5,464 nt of DNA from Actinomycetes bacterium (GTDB taxonomy: Bacteria; Actinomycetota; Acidimicrobiia; UBA5794). Positions 1 to 5,464 of the stretch are shown here, one piece after another (the first letter of the stretch is position 1; every line of letters starts with the position of its first letter). The stretch is taken from the NCBI GenBank assembly GCA_030598305.1, contig JAUVQC010000107.1, forward strand, positions 1 through 5,464. The letters are read 5' to 3'. The position numbers and the translations under genes were made by a program. The notes under the pieces were generated by a model that saw nothing but the letters and a program-made list of their open reading frames with translations, searched no databases and was not told the origin of the DNA.

Positions 1-452
1 ACCATCGCCAGCAACATTGCGGGGAGTGACAGGACGCGGATTGAGAGATATGCGGATGACTGTTCCAGCACATCGCCCCGGGCACCGAACGCGCCAACGA
101 TCGTCTCTGACAGGGAGCCGACCACGATCGCAAGAATGATGCCGAGGCCCACGGAGATGAGCAGTGCGCCCTTCGTGATACCGCCGGCCCTCTCGGGTAA
201 CCCGCGCCCGACCTCCCCTGCGACCATCGGTGTGATCGTTACGTGGATGAAATTGAAGACGGCGAATACTGCCCCGAATACCGCCGAGGCCACCGCAAGG
301 GATGCCAGCTCGACAGTGCCAAGCCGGCCGACCCAGGCGGTATCGACGATCGAGACAAGCGGGTCTATGGCCAGCGTCCCGAGCGCCGGAATCGCCAGGG
401 CCGCAATCGCCCCATCGCGGGGGCTTCGCCGAAACGCCTGGGGGATTCTCAT
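1..452 (-). CDS. MATE/DinF-family efflux transporter, N-terminal part (cut by window edge)
   Basis: Inner-membrane multidrug/organic-cation antiporter of the MATE family (normally about 12 helices and 430-460 residues), driven by Na+ or H+ gradients. Only the first 150 residues are here; the frame is open to the left edge. After a basic start (MRIPQAFRRSPRDG) come hydrophobic segments at about residues 15-38, 47-72 and 95-117, with a fourth beginning near 139. The end of helix 1 reads DTAWVGRLG (37-45), the typical MATE D-x-x-x-V-G-R-x-G turn, and the end of helix 2 reads ITPMVAGEVGRG (73-84), matching the family's TTPLVAxxxGxG. This fits the DinF-like branch best. The ATG at 452 overlaps the nth stop as ATGA, with a weak GAGG a few bases upstream, so translation is probably coupled to nth. 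The family is seen from motifs; the substrate is unknown. Confidence 0.88.
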   Translation of the reverse strand, partial: MRIPQAFRRSPRDGAIAALAIPALGTLAIDPLVSIVDTAWVGRLGTVELASLAVASAVFGAVFAVFNFIHVTITPMVAGEVGRGLPERAGGITKGALLISVGLGIILAIVVGSLSETIVGAFGARGDVLEQSSAYLSIRVLSLPAMLLAM

Positions 453-1129
453 CCGCCTCGCGGCTTCCGGCTTTCGGCTTTCAACTTGCCCTCCCACTCG
501 CACCGATCAAAGAGAGGGCACTCCATACACCGAGGTTTCTTGGCGTCGCACACATCGCGGCCGAACTGGATCAGGGTCATCGATATATCGGTCCATCGCT
601 CCGACGGATAGAGCGCCATGAGGTCGCGCTCAACCTTCTCAGGGTTCGTGTTCGCTGTGAGCCCGACCCGGTGTGCGACTCTCTTCACGTGTGTGTCGAC
701 GGCGATGGCCGGGATGTCCCACACCTCGGCAAGCACGACTGACGCCGTTTTGCGCCCGACGCCGCGGAGCTTGACCAATTCGTCGAGATCGGCAGGCACC
801 TCACCATCGAACCTGTCAACCAGATCGCCAGCGAGGGCGATGATGCTCTTCGTCTTCTGCCGGTAGTAGCCGGTCGAGTAGATGATTTCCTCAACCACTT
901 CCGGGTCGGCTGCTGCGAGGTCATCGGGAGTTGGGTACTTCTCGAAGAGCACCGGAGCAACCTTGTTCACGTTCTCATCCGTGGTCTGGGCTGACATCAC
1001 GGTCGACACGAGCAACTGCCACGGGTCGACGTATTCAAGCGCGGTTTCGATGTCGGGGTAGATCTTTGTGAGGCGGTTCAGGATCACCCTCGCGTTTGCA
1101 CGCTCCTCAACCGATGGCTGGTTCTCCAT
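449..1129 (-). CDS. nth: Endonuclease III, [4Fe-4S] DNA glycosylase/AP lyase
   Basis: Bifunctional base-excision-repair enzyme that removes oxidised pyrimidines (such as thymine glycol) and cuts the abasic site by beta-elimination. The 226-residue length is slightly above the 211 of E. coli Nth. All diagnostic residues are present: the helix-hairpin-helix LRGVGRKTA at 121-129 with catalytic Lys127, catalytic Asp145 in VDTHV, and the iron-sulfur cysteines 194, 201, 204 and 210 in C-x6-C-x2-C-x5-C spacing. Each is offset by exactly 7 from E. coli K120, D138, C187, C194, C197 and C203, so the protein should be intact and active. The ATG at 1129 lies 4 bp after the stop of the upstream membrane-protein gene and has no clear Shine-Dalgarno, which suggests translational coupling. 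The last roughly 10 residues (KAESRKPRGG) are basic, poorly conserved, and encoded by a short 7-bp tandem repeat. Confidence 0.97.
   Translation of the reverse strand: MENQPSVEERANARVILNRLTKIYPDIETALEYVDPWQLLVSTVMSAQTTDENVNKVAPVLFEKYPTPDDLAAADPEVVEEIIYSTGYYRQKTKSIIALAGDLVDRFDGEVPADLDELVKLRGVGRKTASVVLAEVWDIPAIAVDTHVKRVAHRVGLTANTNPEKVERDLMALYPSERWTDISMTLIQFGRDVCDAKKPRCMECPLFDRCEWEGKLKAESRKPRGG
462..482. repeat. Three-copy 7-bp tandem repeat inside the 3' end of nth
   Basis: On the + strand the units are GGCTTCC, GGCTTTC and GGCTTTC with no spacer. They encode the basic tail of endonuclease III (about residues 217-223), beyond the last cluster cysteine, where length should be tolerated. The repeat is seen directly. 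Whether it belongs to a dispersed family is unknown. Confidence 0.7.
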
Positions 1130-1133
1130 TACG

Positions 1134-1568
1134 CTACGAACCCAGGATCACGATGGCGAGCCCTATGGCCACGTACAGCACGCCACCGAGGACCTGCCAG
1201 AACGCCCGTGCGTTCGCTTCGGGTCTCAGACCCTTCTGGAGTCGTTCCTGTGGTGTGATCTTGAAGCTCGAATTGGCCTCCGGCTGCGGCTCATCTGCTC
1301 TCCTTGTCCCGAAGAGAGCGCCCATGGCGCCCATGCCGAGGTTCGTGTAACCGCCGCCTGAGGATCCTCCCGCCAGGAGGAGCACGACACCGTAGAGGAT
1401 CATCGTGTAGCCAACGCTCGAGGCAAGGGCGATATCGCTGACGAGCCAGATCACCACACCAACGGCTGCGGCCCCGAGGAGCCCGATGCCGAACGTGACG
1501 AGGTAGTCAGGCATCCGCTCGGACAGCGGAATGGTCTCCTCTATGCCTTCGGGCGTCAGCGGTTCCAT
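1134..1568 (-). CDS. Hypothetical three-helix membrane protein upstream of nth
   Basis: I do not recognise a family for this 144-residue protein. It has an acidic N-terminus (MEPLTPEGIEETIPLSE), hydrophobic segments at about residues 22-43 and 47-67, then a Gly-rich loop (GGSSGGGYTNLGMGAMG, 68-84). A polar, charged segment follows (about 88-121, rich in E, R, P and Q), and a third hydrophobic segment at 123-143 ends almost at the C-terminus. The Gly/Met-rich stretch after helix 2 is distinctive and might be membrane-associated or a flexible linker. The gene is 30 bp downstream of another small membrane protein on the same strand and 4 bp upstream of nth, so it is probably in one transcript with nth and the MATE gene. 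The ATG at 1568 lacks a Shine-Dalgarno; a TACTCT box sits 9 bp upstream of it. The CDS is convincing from its hydrophobicity pattern and packing; the function is unknown. Confidence 0.8.
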   Translation of the reverse strand: MEPLTPEGIEETIPLSERMPDYLVTFGIGLLGAAAVGVVIWLVSDIALASSVGYTMILYGVVLLLAGGSSGGGYTNLGMGAMGALFGTRRADEPQPEANSSFKITPQERLQKGLRPEANARAFWQVLGGVLYVAIGLAIVILGS

Positions 1569-1577
1569 AAGGGTGTC

Positions 1578-1583
1578 AGAGTA
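1578..1583 (-). promoter_or_regulatory. Possible -10 box (TACTCT) for the 144-residue membrane-protein gene
   Basis: Read on the minus strand, TACTCT ends 9 bp before the ATG at 1568, so a transcript would have almost no leader. A TTGACG lies only 13 bp further upstream, too close for a standard -35. The gene may instead be transcribed from the small gene 30 bp upstream. Weak candidate. Confidence 0.25.
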
Positions 1584-1598
1584 CAGGACTGTGCGACG

Positions 1599-1856
1599 TC
1601 AATTCCGTGTCGGCACCCTGCCGAGCAAATGGAGGCATCCCACGATTCCCCCGCCGAGGAGCACGAGGGCGCCCACAAGGGCGACCAGCAGTTCCATGAG
1701 GGTGAACGCCGAGGTCGAGCACGTTCCCAGTCCGGTCGGACAGAGGCCGAGGCCGGTACCACCAACGACGAGATCGAGGAGGACGACCGCAGGTAGGGCC
1801 ACCACGATGACGAGAAGAACGACAAGGCCGCCAAGCAGCAGTCTCACAAATGCCAT
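1599..1856 (-). CDS. Small two-helix membrane protein with a Cys-containing loop
   Basis: An 85-residue protein that I do not recognise. It has two long hydrophobic segments (about residues 6-31 and 51-76) joined by a short loop, GTGLGLCPTGLGTCSTS, with cysteines at 39 and 46. Arg5 at the N-terminus and Arg80/Arg84 at the C-terminus suggest both ends are cytoplasmic and the loop is outside, where the two cysteines could form a disulfide (inference). The frame is open further upstream, but I chose ATG 1856: the hydrophobic protein begins immediately there, the upstream translation is antisense to the ThyX-like gene, and a TACCCT box lies 7 bp before the ATG, as in a leaderless promoter. No Shine-Dalgarno is visible. 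It is the first gene of the leftward cluster and is divergent from the ThyX-like gene. Confidence 0.68.
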   Translation of the reverse strand: MAFVRLLLGGLVVLLVIVVALPAVVLLDLVVGGTGLGLCPTGLGTCSTSAFTLMELLVALVGALVLLGGGIVGCLHLLGRVPTRN

Positions 1857-1863
1857 GCATCGA

Positions 1864-1869
1864 AGGGTA
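1864..1869 (-). promoter_or_regulatory. Candidate leaderless -10 box (TACCCT) for the leftward cluster
   Basis: On the minus strand TACCCT occupies -13 to -8 relative to the A of the ATG at 1856. That is the distance expected when transcription begins at or next to the start codon. No good -35 is visible. The absence of a Shine-Dalgarno supports the reading. Confidence 0.42.
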
Positions 1870-1884
1870 CAACGGGGCCGGATA

Positions 1885-1913
1885 TTGCTGAGGTACCCGG
1901 GTGTGTGTACGGT
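1885..1913 (+). promoter_or_regulatory. Candidate promoter of the double ThyX-like gene
   Basis: TTGCTG (1885-1890) is separated by exactly 17 bp from TACGGT (1908-1913). This would start transcription near 1920 and give a leader of about 20 nt that carries the Shine-Dalgarno. Both hexamers are only partial matches to sigma-70 consensus. It lies in the 85-bp gap shared with the divergent membrane-protein gene. Confidence 0.38.
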
Positions 1914-1929
1914 GCCACGAAACCCATCC

Positions 1930-1935
1930 GAGAGG
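1930..1935 (+). promoter_or_regulatory. Shine-Dalgarno deciding the GTG start of the ThyX-like gene
   Basis: GAGAGG ends 6 bp before GTG 1942. It selects this codon over the many in-frame ATG and GTG codons upstream, back to 1531, which would lie on top of the oppositely oriented membrane-protein genes. Confidence 0.65.
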
Positions 1936-1941
1936 CTGTTC

Positions 1942-3597
1942 GTGAGCACCGGCGTCGCCGCACCCCCGGCATACCACATCGAATCATTCACAGAGGACGA
2001 GCGTACGATTCTCGCCCGATACTTCACAGATATCAATGGTCCAGTATTTGCCATCACGGGCCTGCCCGAGGTCGTCAAGGGTGCGCTCTTCGCCCGCTAC
2101 AGCCGGTCCCCGAAGTCTGTACGTCGCCTCTTCATCGACGAGTTCGCGTCGGATGCCGAATCCGGAGTCGCCAACATCGATTCTGCATCCGAGCACGCAG
2201 GCTCCATCGGCAGGGCGAAGGCAGAGGGCTTGTACGACCGTGTATTCACGCAGTATGGCGATGACTCGGTGGCCCAACTCGGCGCCGCTCATCTCGCTGT
2301 CGAACAGGCATCGAACATCCTCACGAAGGTGCTCGAGTGGGGCAGGCTCGCGTCGTACCTGGAACAGTCGACCCGGTACATCTTCTACGACAAGTTGCTC
2401 GGTGACCGTTACAGATTCCAGGTCCCTCAGGAACTAGCTGACCACCGATTGACGGACCGATACAACACCGACATGGCTTGGATGTTCTCCACGTACAGCG
2501 ATGTCGTGCAAAGGCTGGTCGCCTACTACGAGCACCTCTACCCGAAACAGCCAGGTGACTCGAACTTCGTGTGGACGTCGACGATCCGCGCAAAGGCGTG
2601 TGACGATGCACGTGGTCTCCTTCCGGCATCCACCCAGTCCAACGTCGGTATCTTCGCCTCCGGACAGGCGTATGAAGCGCTCCTGCTGCGAATGCAGGCG
2701 AATCCGCTGGCAGAGGTTCGCTGGTTCGCTGACGCGATGCTCGTTGAACTGCGCAAGGTCATCCCATCCTTCATGAAACGCGTCGACGTGCCTGACCGCG
2801 GCGGCGCCTGGGTCGACTACTTCAGCGAGATCGCCGGTGCGATGGATGCGCGGGGTGCCTCGATTGGCGCTCCACCGAACGATGCACCAACGGTCACCTT
2901 GGTCGAGTTCGATCCCGACGGCGAACGGAAGGTCGCGGCCGCAAGCCTCTATTCGCACACGAATCTTCCGGACACCCAGATTCGGGACATCGTCGCGACG
3001 ATGGACGAAAGCGAGATCGACGGCATCTTCGCTGACCTCGTGGGCGATCGCACCAATCGACGCCACAAGCCCGGTCGTGGCATGGAACAGACCTTCTATC
3101 GCTTCGATGTGCTGTGTGACTACGGCATCTTCAGGGACCTCCAACGCCACCGGATGATGACGCTCGATTGGCAGCAGCTCTCACCCAACCATGGGTACGT
3201 GACACCCGACTCGATCACCGACATCGGTGCCGAATCGATCTGGGACGAGGCCATGGAGCGCGCCGGTGCTCTCTATACGCACATCAGCGATTCGGCCGGC
3301 TCCCATGTCGCCCAATACGCTGTGCCCTTTGCGAACCGGGTCAGGTTCTACATGAACATGAACGCTCGCGAGGCGTTCCACATGCTCGAGCTCCGCACAC
3401 AGCAGGGCGGGCACCCGGACTACCGGGCGGTGTGCCAGGAGATGCATACATTGATTCGAGATGTCGCGGGTCACGCGCGTATCGCTGGTGCAATGACCTA
3501 CATCGACCACAATGACTACGACCTCGCTCGACTCGAGACGGAGCGCAGGGCTGCTGGGAAGCGGGCAGCCATGGGTATCGAGGACCCGTCAGCCTGA
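1942..3597 (+). CDS. Double-domain ThyX-like protein (FAD-dependent thymidylate synthase family)
   Basis: A 551-residue protein, about twice the size of canonical ThyX (220-250 residues), built from two ThyX-like halves. The C-terminal half (about 316-515) begins with the ThyX strand VTLVEFDPDGERKVAAASLY and contains FRDLQRHR (397-404). It later has NAREAFHMLELR (474-485) and a final Arg495, the counterparts of ThyX NxRxLxHFLxLR and AQWEIR. The N-terminal half (about 45-280) contains WGRLASYLEQSTRY (133-146), which parallels RHRIASYNELSGRY of Thermotoga ThyX but without RHR, and a matching late segment ending AEVR (257-260). The FAD-contacting His of the EH motif appears as Gln383. ThyX makes dTMP from dUMP with methylenetetrahydrofolate and FAD/NADPH; activity here is uncertain because no half has the whole motif. 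The GTG start is chosen from its Shine-Dalgarno; the open frame upstream is Arg/Pro/Thr-rich noise. The gene is monocistronic and convergent with its neighbour. Confidence 0.85.
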   Translation: MSTGVAAPPAYHIESFTEDERTILARYFTDINGPVFAITGLPEVVKGALFARYSRSPKSVRRLFIDEFASDAESGVANIDSASEHAGSIGRAKAEGLYDRVFTQYGDDSVAQLGAAHLAVEQASNILTKVLEWGRLASYLEQSTRYIFYDKLLGDRYRFQVPQELADHRLTDRYNTDMAWMFSTYSDVVQRLVAYYEHLYPKQPGDSNFVWTSTIRAKACDDARGLLPASTQSNVGIFASGQAYEALLLRMQANPLAEVRWFADAMLVELRKVIPSFMKRVDVPDRGGAWVDYFSEIAGAMDARGASIGAPPNDAPTVTLVEFDPDGERKVAAASLYSHTNLPDTQIRDIVATMDESEIDGIFADLVGDRTNRRHKPGRGMEQTFYRFDVLCDYGIFRDLQRHRMMTLDWQQLSPNHGYVTPDSITDIGAESIWDEAMERAGALYTHISDSAGSHVAQYAVPFANRVRFYMNMNAREAFHMLELRTQQGGHPDYRAVCQEMHTLIRDVAGHARIAGAMTYIDHNDYDLARLETERRAAGKRAAMGIEDPSA

Positions 3598-3801
3598 GAT
3601 CGGGATCCTTAGGACAAGGTCACCTTCGTCGAGGGACCACGACGCAGATCCGACGAGGGAGTAGTCGAGGTAGTCCTTCTCGGCCGCTTCTATGAACTGC
3701 TTCCGCGCCGATCCCTCAAGGGGAGGCACGCCGCGTTCGCGTACCGCTTCAGCCCTGTCCTGAAAACGTTTCAGGAAGGCGTCCATATCAAGTTGGGCCA
3801 T
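3589..3801 (-). CDS. Small conserved-type hypothetical protein, divergent from the ArsA-like pair
   Basis: A 70-residue soluble protein. Residues 5-24 form a likely amphipathic helix (LDMDAFLKRFQDRAEAVRER), followed by a Pro turn (VPPLEG, 25-30), a second helix (SARKQFIEAAEKDYLDY, 31-47), and two short beta-like stretches ending in DLVLRIPI (61-68). From memory, similar short proteins with R-A-x-A-V-R, P-P-x-E-G and D-Y-x-D motifs occur next to actinobacterial ArsA-like genes. I know no function and cannot verify this here. The ATG at 3801 is fixed by an excellent Shine-Dalgarno (AAAGGAG, 5-bp spacing). The upstream open frame, which runs into the ATPase gene on the other strand, is spurious. 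The stop lies inside the end of the convergent ThyX-like gene (9-bp overlap). No membrane segment or cysteine is present. Confidence 0.82.
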   Translation of the reverse strand: MAQLDMDAFLKRFQDRAEAVRERGVPPLEGSARKQFIEAAEKDYLDYSLVGSASWSLDEGDLVLRIPISG

Positions 3802-3806
3802 GAGGG

Positions 3807-3813
3807 CTCCTTT
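3807..3813 (-). promoter_or_regulatory. Strong Shine-Dalgarno (AAAGGAG) of the 70-residue gene
   Basis: On the minus strand AAAGGAG is followed by CCCTC and then the ATG at 3801. It is the best ribosome binding site in the window and sets the start of this small gene. Confidence 0.8.
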
Positions 3814-3818
3814 GTGAG

Positions 3819-3842
3819 AGTAGGGAGTAGAGAGTAGAGAGT
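3819..3842. repeat. Heptanucleotide tandem repeat in the divergent intergenic region
   Basis: The + strand shows AGTAGGG, AGTAGAG, AGTAGAG and a partial AGT, with no spacers. On the minus strand the array, together with the bases just before it, supplies two TACTCT hexamers (3831-3836 and 3817-3822) and a TACTCC. It therefore sits where the -10 region or leader of the 70-residue gene should be, directly upstream of its Shine-Dalgarno. Confidence 0.75.
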
Positions 3843-3864
3843 CCGCAGAGCCCAGAAGTTGCGG

Positions 3865-3902
3865 GGAACGCTTCGCGTTCCTGCCAACTCCCAAGGAACG
3901 CG
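3865..3902. repeat. Two mutually exclusive inverted repeats
   Basis: GGAACGC (3865-3871) pairs with GCGTTCC (3875-3881) around a TTC loop, giving a 7-bp hairpin. The same right arm, extended to CGCGTTCCT (3874-3882), pairs instead with AGGAACGCG (3894-3902), a perfect 9-bp stem with an 11-nt loop. A further GGAAC/GTTCC pairing (3895-3899 with 3907-3911) is possible. There is no T-tract, so an intrinsic terminator is unlikely. It may be a dispersed intergenic repeat, an operator, or structure in the leader of the 70-residue gene. Confidence 0.6.
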
Positions 3903-3910
3903 CAGGGTTC

Positions 3911-3926
3911 CCAGCCGATAGGCTGG
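3911..3926 (+). promoter_or_regulatory. Leaderless -10 box inside a perfect palindrome before the first ATPase gene
   Basis: TAGGCT (3919-3924) lies exactly at -12 to -7 if the A of ATG 3931 is the first transcribed base, the expected layout for an actinobacterial leaderless gene. There is no Shine-Dalgarno. The box is embedded in CCAGCC-GATA-GGCTGG, a perfect 6-bp inverted repeat with a 4-bp centre. If transcription starts at the ATG this palindrome is not transcribed, so it would act as DNA, for example as an operator. No convincing -35 is visible. Confidence 0.5.
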
Positions 3927-3930
3927 CACC

Positions 3931-4791
3931 ATGACCGCAAGTCGCCTCATCTTCGTCTCCGGCAAGGGCGGAACCGGCAAATCTGCGGTAACTGCAGCCA
4001 CAGCCATCGACTTTGCGCGACGCGGCCACCGGGTGCTTGCCATTGACCTGGACAACCGAACAGGTCTTGCGGCGCATCTCAGGCAGGCGAAGCTCAAGTA
4101 CGATCCGACAGAGGTCAGACCGGGGTTGTTCGCGATGGTCATGAACCGCCCCGACGCCCTCGACGAGTATCTCAAGAGACAGCTCCATGTCCCCCACGGC
4201 GCACCGACACGCCACATCTCGGCGGCTCTCGCTGTTCTCGCCGATACCGCTCCGGGGGTGCGGGAGATCATCACCATCGGTAAGCCGATCGGAGAAGTTC
4301 TCACCGGAAACTGGGATGTTGTTATCGTTGACGCATCCTCCCTCGGCCAGTTCCAGTCCTACCTCAGTGCACCAAGAACCATATCCGAGCTTGTCCCGAC
4401 GGGAACGATGCGACGCCTCGCGAGCCGTATGCGTACAACGCTTCGTGACAGCGATGTGACGTCAATCCATCTCGTGACGACCCCCTCAGAACTCCCGATC
4501 ATCGAGACCGCCGAGGCGATCGCGACGATCAGGAAAGAAGAGCTTGGTCCCGAACCGAAGGTGATCCTCAACCGGGTTCTCGAGGCCTCAGGGATCGCTG
4601 ACGGCGATCTCGAGTCACTCGGAGACGGTCCGCTACGGGAGGCAGCGACGCTCCAACTCGATCTCGAAGCCGACCAGGACCGTTGGTCAGGCGAGGTGGC
4701 CTCTGATGCCTCACTCCCCTATCTGTTCGGTGTGTTCACCCCCGGTGAGGTCGCCGAACAGCTTGCCGACAGGATCGGGATGCCGTTATGA
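3931..4791 (+). CDS. ArsA/Get3-like ATPase, first of a tandem pair
   Basis: Cytoplasmic SIMIBI-class P-loop ATPase, 286 residues. The deviant Walker A is SGKGGTGKS (10-18), with the signature Lys12 that reaches across the dimer and the P-loop Lys17. The switch I region is IDLDNRTGL (38-46) rather than the usual DPAxxLxD. The switch II region is VDASSLGQF (133-141) rather than DTxPTGH, so both switches are degenerate. VTTPSELPIIETAEAI (182-197) matches the ArsA/Get3 VTxPExxxxxET segment, and ILNRV (212-216) the base-binding Asn strand. No metal-binding Cys cluster or transmembrane segment is seen, so arsenite export is not supported. The ATG at 3931 fits a leaderless promoter. The stop overlaps the next ATPase start as ATGA. 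Actinobacteria carry such pairs; in Mycobacterium tuberculosis I recall Rv3679-Rv3680, described as Get3 homologues. The actual client is unknown. Confidence 0.88.
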   Translation: MTASRLIFVSGKGGTGKSAVTAATAIDFARRGHRVLAIDLDNRTGLAAHLRQAKLKYDPTEVRPGLFAMVMNRPDALDEYLKRQLHVPHGAPTRHISAALAVLADTAPGVREIITIGKPIGEVLTGNWDVVIVDASSLGQFQSYLSAPRTISELVPTGTMRRLASRMRTTLRDSDVTSIHLVTTPSELPIIETAEAIATIRKEELGPEPKVILNRVLEASGIADGDLESLGDGPLREAATLQLDLEADQDRWSGEVASDASLPYLFGVFTPGEVAEQLADRIGMPL

Positions 4792-5464
4792 CCTCGACCA
4801 TCATCGTCACCGGGGCAGGAGGTGTCGGCAAGACGACGCTCTCTGCCGCCCTCGCAGCGTCTATCGCTGCTCGCGGAGTGTCAACCCTCGTCCTGACGAT
4901 CGATCCGGCGAAGCGGCTTGCCGACGCCCTCGGGGTCGGCACTCTCGACGACACCCCAACCCAGATCCGAGGATCCGAGTACATGTGGGCTGCAATGCTC
5001 GACGCCTCGGCATCATGGGAGGCGATCATCCACAGGTATGCCGATCCCGAGGTTGGGGAGCGACTGCTCGGGAACCCCTACTTTCGCGCCATTGCGGATC
5101 GCTTCCCCGCAGCCCAGTCCTACGCCGCGGGCGAGCGAATGGCCGAGTACATCGAGTCCAAGCGCTTCGACGTGATCGTTGTCGACACACCACCATCTGG
5201 CGGAGGCATCGACTTCTTCCAGGCACCGTCGATGGCCAACGACCTGATCTCTGGCAAGCTCCTCAAGTGGCTCACCGGATCGAACCTTCCGGGAAGAGGT
5301 CTGATCTATCGGTTCACGGCAAAACCGATCCTTCGCATCGCGGACAGTGTCCTTGGTGGTCCGATGCTGAGCGAGGTCACAGATTTCCTGCTCGACATCC
5401 GCACCATGTACGACACGATTTCGGTACGGTCACGGACCATCGAGGTGTACCTCAAGGCGGCGAC
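4788..5464 (+). CDS. ArsA/Get3-like ATPase, second of a tandem pair (cut by window edge)
   Basis: The first 225 residues are present; the frame is open to the right edge. Walker A is TGAGGVGKTT (8-17), with P-loop Lys15 but Ala10 where ArsA/Get3 proteins have the signature lysine. Switch I, TIDPAKRLADALG (37-49), closely follows the family's TDPAxxLxDxxG. Switch II, VDTPPSGGGIDFF (132-144), follows DTxPTGHxLRxL. After switch II the region FFQAPSMANDLISGKLLKW and onward (143-202) is the hydrophobic, helix-rich part that in Get3 forms the client-binding lobe (inference). The start ATG lies in the stop of the preceding ATPase gene (ATGA overlap, 4788-4791) with no good Shine-Dalgarno, so the two should be made together by coupled translation, consistent with a heterodimer. 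Family assignment is firm; the substrate is not known. Confidence 0.9.
   Translation, partial: MTSTIIVTGAGGVGKTTLSAALAASIAARGVSTLVLTIDPAKRLADALGVGTLDDTPTQIRGSEYMWAAMLDASASWEAIIHRYADPEVGERLLGNPYFRAIADRFPAAQSYAAGERMAEYIESKRFDVIVVDTPPSGGGIDFFQAPSMANDLISGKLLKWLTGSNLPGRGLIYRFTAKPILRIADSVLGGPMLSEVTDFLLDIRTMYDTISVRSRTIEVYLKAA

Follow-up and report, generated by a model that had tools for sequence, protein, structure and literature searches.

ThyX, the flavin-dependent thymidylate synthase, supplies a precursor that is essential for DNA and has been studied as an antibacterial target. In the enzyme of Mycobacterium tuberculosis (Mtb), the phosphates and the flavin of flavin adenine dinucleotide (FAD) are described as being held by the RHR motif of subunit A, by Ser71 and Arg190 of subunit B, and by the backbone of Gln103 of subunit C. 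The substrate deoxyuridine monophosphate (dUMP) is contacted by Arg95 and Arg199 of subunit A and by Arg87, Ser105, and Arg107 of subunit C, with Tyr108 of subunit C as the lid (PMC6514825). The same sharing of residues between two monomers is described for a viral ThyX with bound inhibitor (PMC3498832), and R174 of Thermotoga maritima (Tm) ThyX is assigned a role in dUMP activation (PMC8316439). Here, we describe a gene from an Actinomycetes bacterium (assembly GCA_030598305.1, contig JAUVQC010000107.1, positions 1 to 5,464; this whole stretch of 5,464 nucleotides is called the window), whose product consists of two ThyX-like halves that divide the catalytic signature between them. From sequence comparison, we conclude that this double ThyX is very probably a working flavin-dependent thymidylate synthase, a covalent pseudo-heterodimer that works like ThyX.

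The window protein matched the Pfam family Thy1 in two stretches, one per half, with 143 bits against a cut-off of 24.8, and each of the relatives' doubles likewise has two Thy1 places over the cut-off. By profile match and by its ThyX fold, the protein belongs to the Thy1 superfamily. Thy1 was the only Pfam family detected at E ≤ 0.01, and the ThyA domain PF00303 is absent. A homology search with the window protein scored at least 8000 candidates, all of them homologous; the best 120 of 8000 scored candidates were considered individually as listed relatives. A sequence search of the PDB gave only E values of 0.35–0.82. The near relative P0002 is 99% identical and 10 amino acids longer. We dropped an alternative gene start at 1531, which would give a frame of 688 amino acids, because most of the listed relatives have lengths of about 550–565 amino acids. 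Likewise, a pseudogene was discarded, since the split residues described below are fixed in relatives.

The catalytic residues were traced in a core alignment of 294 relatives, composed of the window protein, search hits, and open reading frames (ORFs) from genomes, with the distant doubles L068 and L069 left out. Core residues were matched by motif to Tm ThyX numbering, the matching of Mtb to Tm residues being our own choice by motif position. Translation of positions 1942–3597 reproduced both motifs named in a sequence-only reading of the window, that is, WGRLASYLEQSTRY from W133 to Y146 in the N-terminal half (N-half) and R402-H-R404 followed by MMTLDWQQLSP in the C-terminal half (C-half). 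In the dUMP loop of the N-half, E141 and S143 are present in 294/294 core relatives and R145 and Y146 in 293/294, and the R78-H79 positions are occupied by W, K, or R and by G (S or P once each). The C-half has E382, the equivalent of Tm E58, in all 294 core relatives and, equally without exception, G418 at the Y91 position. R398-D399, proposed earlier as the RQ counterpart, proved invariant in 52/52. The R147 equivalent of the N-half (R224) corresponds mostly to Q458 in the C-half (229/294). In the region equivalent to N163/R165, the N-half has G241-Q242, with Q242 at the R165 position in 294/294. For R174, the core family shows no clean division, since R (233/294), K, or H occupies this position in the N-half. 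Taken over the 294 core relatives, the split is nearly absolute, and it was found in 40/40 representatives of less than 70% identity. A contiguous RHR...ExSxRY signature within one half never occurred in the core relatives or in two alignments of distant doubles, which contained 8 and 9 sequences. The features are compiled in Table 1.

Table 1. Coordinates of the double ThyX gene, its motifs, and the neighboring genes in the window. Residue numbers are given in parentheses; counts out of 294 refer to core relatives and counts out of nine to the diverse doubles described in the text.
Feature	Position	Strand	Remarks
Double ThyX gene	1942..3597	+	551 aa, GTG start; translation of window
N-terminal ThyX-like half, residues 1-305	1942..2856	+	TIGR02170 best stretch 96-279
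C-terminal ThyX-like half, residues 315-525	2884..3516	+	
FARYSR (50-55)	2089..2106	+	R52, S54 = Tm R28, S30, folate loop; each 293/294 (1 gap)
GDDS (106-109)	2257..2268	+	Counterpart of ThyX GHxS/T; S109 = Tm T55, kept in 293 or 294/294
WGRLASYLEQSTRY (133-146)	2338..2379	+	dUMP loop E86/S88/R90/Y91 retained, RHR gone
R224-GLLP	2611..2625	+	R224 = Tm R147; 293/294; invariant in 9/9 diverse doubles
RDLQRHR (398-404)	3133..3153	+	RHR (FAD/dUMP-binding in ThyX) kept, ExSxRY after it lost; R402-H403-R404 in 294/294
NAR (474-476)	3361..3369	+	N163, R165 equivalents; N474 289/294, R476 294/294
ELR (483-485)	3388..3396	+	R485 = Tm R174; 294/294 core, 9/9 diverse doubles
MATE-transporter-like gene, start	3-503	-	
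Endonuclease III gene (nth)	449-1129		Adjoins MATE-like gene
144-aa ORF	1134-1568	-	Hydrophobic by eye, no Pfam match
About 70-aa ORF	3589-3801	-	Ends on last bases of double gene; no Pfam match for longer frame holding it
Two adjacent ArsA-like ATPase genes	3931-5462	+	Second extends past window end

The two halves appear to reproduce one inter-subunit site, because, in Mtb ThyX, one subunit contributes the RHR motif together with the R485 equivalent, and another contributes the Ser/Arg/Tyr loop. We propose that the two ThyX-fold halves divide the labor of this site. The C-half would act as "subunit A," with R402-H403-R404 binding FAD and, together with R485, dUMP. The N-half would act as "subunit C," in which the backbone of E141 would contact the flavin, S143 and R145 would bind dUMP, and Y146 would serve as the lid; it would also contribute S109, which corresponds to the FAD phosphate contact of "subunit B," and S54 of the folate loop. 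In the pocket where both motifs are predicted to meet, FADH– would pass the methylene group from methylenetetrahydrofolate to dUMP, yielding thymidine monophosphate (dTMP) and tetrahydrofolate. The opposite pairing, made of the W-G-R of the N-half and the degenerate loop of the C-half, would be without its residues. In a dimer of doubles, two sites would then be live and two dead, rather than all four live, and half the active sites is probably what follows if the tetramer has been retained. Alternatively, no composite site may exist, and each motif would belong to a site of its own; the C-half could, for instance, bind FAD and the N-half a regulatory nucleotide. The halves are indeed too diverged to detect each other in hhalign (8% probability), but the known partner of every retained residue lies in the opposite half, in line with the published A/C division, even at 17–26% identity, which makes separate sites highly improbable.

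The comparison of the halves also bears on the origin of the gene. Residues 123–275 of the N-half matched canonical ThyX with a probability of 97.5% and an E value of 8e-12 (hhalign), and no significant match was obtained between N-half and C-half, although each of them matches canonical ThyX. This would be expected if two different ThyX genes had first encoded a heteromer and then fused, an origin that is compatible with a working thymidylate synthase. However, no two-gene form was met, in a search for split forms that was not systematic. The doubles of Vibrio phage Yong XC31, a Microcoleus phage, and Ma-LMM01 are single fused ORFs, and the Refuge and HGTV-1 genes encode ordinary single ThyX with its own RHR. 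Fusion of two different genes is possible but, in our view, doubtful, and the double may have arisen by a single duplication.

The conservation of the split was followed into a diverse set of nine doubles, comprising the window protein, one from an IMG/VR contig, those of two Paenibacillus records, and those of the five phages Tunturi_5, Yong XC31, Ma-LMM01, My-WqHQDG, and BONAISHI. The eight others are 17–53% identical to the window protein. Invariant residues occupy only 17 of the 551 columns, 10 of which coincide with ThyX catalytic positions (S54, S109, E141, S143, R145, R224, R402, H403, R404, and R485), a hypergeometric enrichment of 1.5e-9 relative to 32 catalytic columns of our choosing. 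At position 146, L109 has Phe in place of Tyr, alone among the nine. The main split residues are retained in phage and plasmid doubles of as little as 17–26% identity, and the T55 equivalent lies in the N-half of the Paenibacillus and Tunturi_5 doubles, as S109 does in the window family. Scans of IMG/VR yielded 23 matching stretches with alignment A1, no relative among them; no double with the Tunturi_5 query; a 100% identical copy only with the Paenibacillus query; and one double with the Parabacteroides query. The Paenibacillus rhizovicinus "plasmid" NZ_CP048288.1 (L068/L106; 228,841 bp) has the same size as the IMG/VR viral contig encoding the identical double, and the element is probably a phage-plasmid.

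Two details of the sequence-only reading did not hold. It had taken Q383 as the counterpart of the FAD-contacting histidine. Q383 aligns to Tm H59 of "FEH," and for Thermotoga ThyX the contact with FAD or Tyr91 is described for another histidine, H53 of "GHET" (PMC11940539). In our alignment, the N-half carries D107 and the C-half P377 opposite Tm H53; position 383 is variable, with Q, R, and T in 117, 70, and 50 of 294. It had also described the continuation after RHR as two residues longer than normal. This rests on equating S414 with Ser88, yet position 414 varies (S in 195/294), so loss is a better reading of the C-half sequence after RHR than lengthening.

Genome content was assessed in relatives, using an even sample of 149 genomes from the phylum of the Actinomycetes record G001. 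A full-length double was present in 44/149 genomes (about 30%); together with G002, these constitute the 45 double genomes. A repeat sample around G002 gave long matches in 47/149, mostly in the same genomes, and is therefore not independent. Thy1 matches occurred only in doubles in all 44 genomes and likewise in G002, and a single-domain Thy1 gene was found in 0/45 double genomes. ThyA was detected in 1/45, as a fragment in G126 that is possibly contamination. The check for ThyA and Thy1 covered 75 of the 105 genomes with no full double. Dihydrofolate reductase (DHFR) was found in 1/45 double genomes, compared with 10/10 genomes with a strong ThyA match (three of these 10 also with Thy1). It exceeded the cut-off in 0/49 genomes with Thy1 and no strong ThyA, which gave one sub-threshold match. 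DHFR is described as recycling the dihydrofolate produced by the ThyA-type enzyme (PMC1971073), and ThyX as giving back tetrahydrofolate (PMC9931769). In the relatives, the double appears to replace both ThyA and canonical ThyX, with no need of DHFR and G126 as the one exception. Taken by itself, the absence of DHFR is weak evidence, since 14 genomes with nothing beyond a divergent ThyA-like match share it.

These 14 of the 75 genomes (G017, G022, G032, G037, G044, G045, G049, G056, G060, G067, G078, G082, G089, and G093) had no Thy1, no strong ThyA, and no DHFR. They gave a weak PF00303 match of 35.6–42.6 bits at positions of about 110–235, some with in-frame stops, which possibly represents a divergent ThyA-type synthase. 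Very weak Thy1 matches (40–44 bits) in frames of 302–451 amino acids were seen in G011, G041, G052, and G074 and probably represent divergent ThyX-like proteins. G042 contains two different full-length doubles (G042:C71 and G042:C5). The contig SMXV01000058.1 (L002) of G002 is titled as an Acidobacteria metagenome-assembled genome (MAG); its phylum sample was almost identical to the one obtained for the Actinomycetes MAG G001, and the title is probably wrong.

The genome content also bears on a further explanation, in which the double binds flavin and a pyrimidine nucleotide but catalyzes another reaction, such as methylation of uridine monophosphate (UMP) like PolB, or formation of 5-hydroxymethyl-dUMP for modified DNA or a product pathway. 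Nearly all double genomes examined would then be devoid of a known dTMP synthase, and 28/45 also gave no match for thymidine kinase. Moreover, the known dUMP residues are retained. Nucleotide or folate genes lie near the double in 3/10 annotated records viewed, and in two of them the neighbors supply dUMP, namely, dCTP deaminase on a Euzebya plasmid and dCMP deaminase plus dUTPase in Tunturi_5. The third is Parabacteroides distasonis, where DHFR is the fourth gene downstream. The P. distasonis "plasmid" NZ_OY725790.1 (L066), which carries a double ThyX, DHFR, and a tRNA-modification gene, resembles a piece of chromosome. Altogether, we regard a different reaction as improbable, and a new flavin or nucleotide activity, offered as an alternative in the sequence-only reading, is unneeded and less likely. 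The proposal in that reading of complementary active-site elements in each half is supported: the split is fixed across the family and follows the known subunit boundaries, and the genome content fits dTMP synthesis.

Several observations weigh against a working thymidylate synthase of the ThyX type. The window protein scores 72.6 bits against the TIGR02170 equivalog cut-off of 87.9. H53 is replaced by D107 in the core family, the histidine being retained in 7/7 phage or Paenibacillus doubles. In the core family, the R165 equivalent, the "B" arginine, is R476 of the C-half; in the Paenibacillus and Tunturi_5 doubles, it belongs to the N-half. The N-half modeled alone, from three sequences, reached a predicted local distance difference test score (pLDDT) of 40 and was unusable. 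With respect to genome content, the 149-genome sample was requested at 90% completeness with no per-genome values shown; G063 and G068, two of the 44 genomes, have one stop flagged inside the matched stretch; and the ThyA fragment of G126 shares a contig with that genome's DHFR. DHFR absence is not specific, given the 14 weak-ThyA genomes and the DHFR near the P. distasonis double, and no named dUMP-supply or folate gene adjoins the double in 7/10 annotated records viewed.

Residue-supplying subunits are known from symmetric tetramers; here, their roles are separated on one chain. Thus, a residue can be mutated in only one of its two copies, and the cross-subunit mechanism becomes directly testable. 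Within one phylum, about 30% of the genomes sampled (44/149) appear to depend on this architecture; the single member scored against the curated ThyX equivalog profile fell below its cut-off. In this lineage, which extends over Actinomycetota, Parabacteroides, and large phages, fusion might even have frozen an obligately asymmetric, half-of-sites enzyme and turned the dead pocket into a non-catalytic folate- or nucleotide-sensing regulator of the live site. We consider this idea rather unlikely. In the dead pocket, the C-half still has the residues R373, R374, P377, R379, Q411, and G418, invariant in an alignment of 120 sequences.

The gene at 3–503, which we take to encode a MATE transporter, nth, the small ORF, and the two ArsA-like ATPase genes occur in the same order around the double in the four nearest loci (61–79% identity), as far as the contigs reach. 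This arrangement is consistent with a chromosomal gene passed on within a lineage. The ORF of about 70 amino acids is conserved (83% in L001, 57% in L113). The 144-aa ORF is kept in L112 (56%), only one of the four nearest loci, and was not found in L001 or L113. In 10 further stretches that were compared, none of the window's neighbor genes was found.

Public records already name such doubles FAD-dependent thymidylate synthase or ThyX, and we found no description of a two-domain ThyX form or a split site in the open-access literature. The double is a ThyX variant and not a canonical ThyX, because it reaches neither the equivalog score nor a contiguous signature. With canonical ThyX (T. maritima TM0449, 1o26; M. 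tuberculosis 2af6), it shares the Thy1 fold and, somewhere in its chain, RHR, ExSxRY, the R147/R165/R174 equivalents, and the folate-loop Ser, and also genomes that are mostly devoid of ThyA and DHFR. In contrast to canonical ThyX, it has two domains per chain and twice the length, the signature is split with neither half complete, and H53 is replaced in the core family. Thermus thermophilus Thy1 (6j61) reportedly has an extra C-terminal domain; its chain of 270 residues would be too short for a second Thy1 domain. PolB, the UMP/dUMP methylase of Streptomyces cacaoi (4p5a/4p5b), is a single-domain protein of 239 residues, for which UMP is also a substrate according to its title. The thymidylate synthase of Microcystis phage Ma-LMM01 (phrog_36506, 491 aa) shares the split, with ERSTRY in the N-half and RHR plus the R485 equivalent in the C-half, but is a phage gene product, 20–22% identical to the window protein, in which GHxS is kept. 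The FAD-dependent thymidylate synthase of P. distasonis (WP_009276148) is a full-length double, 45% identical, with the same split.
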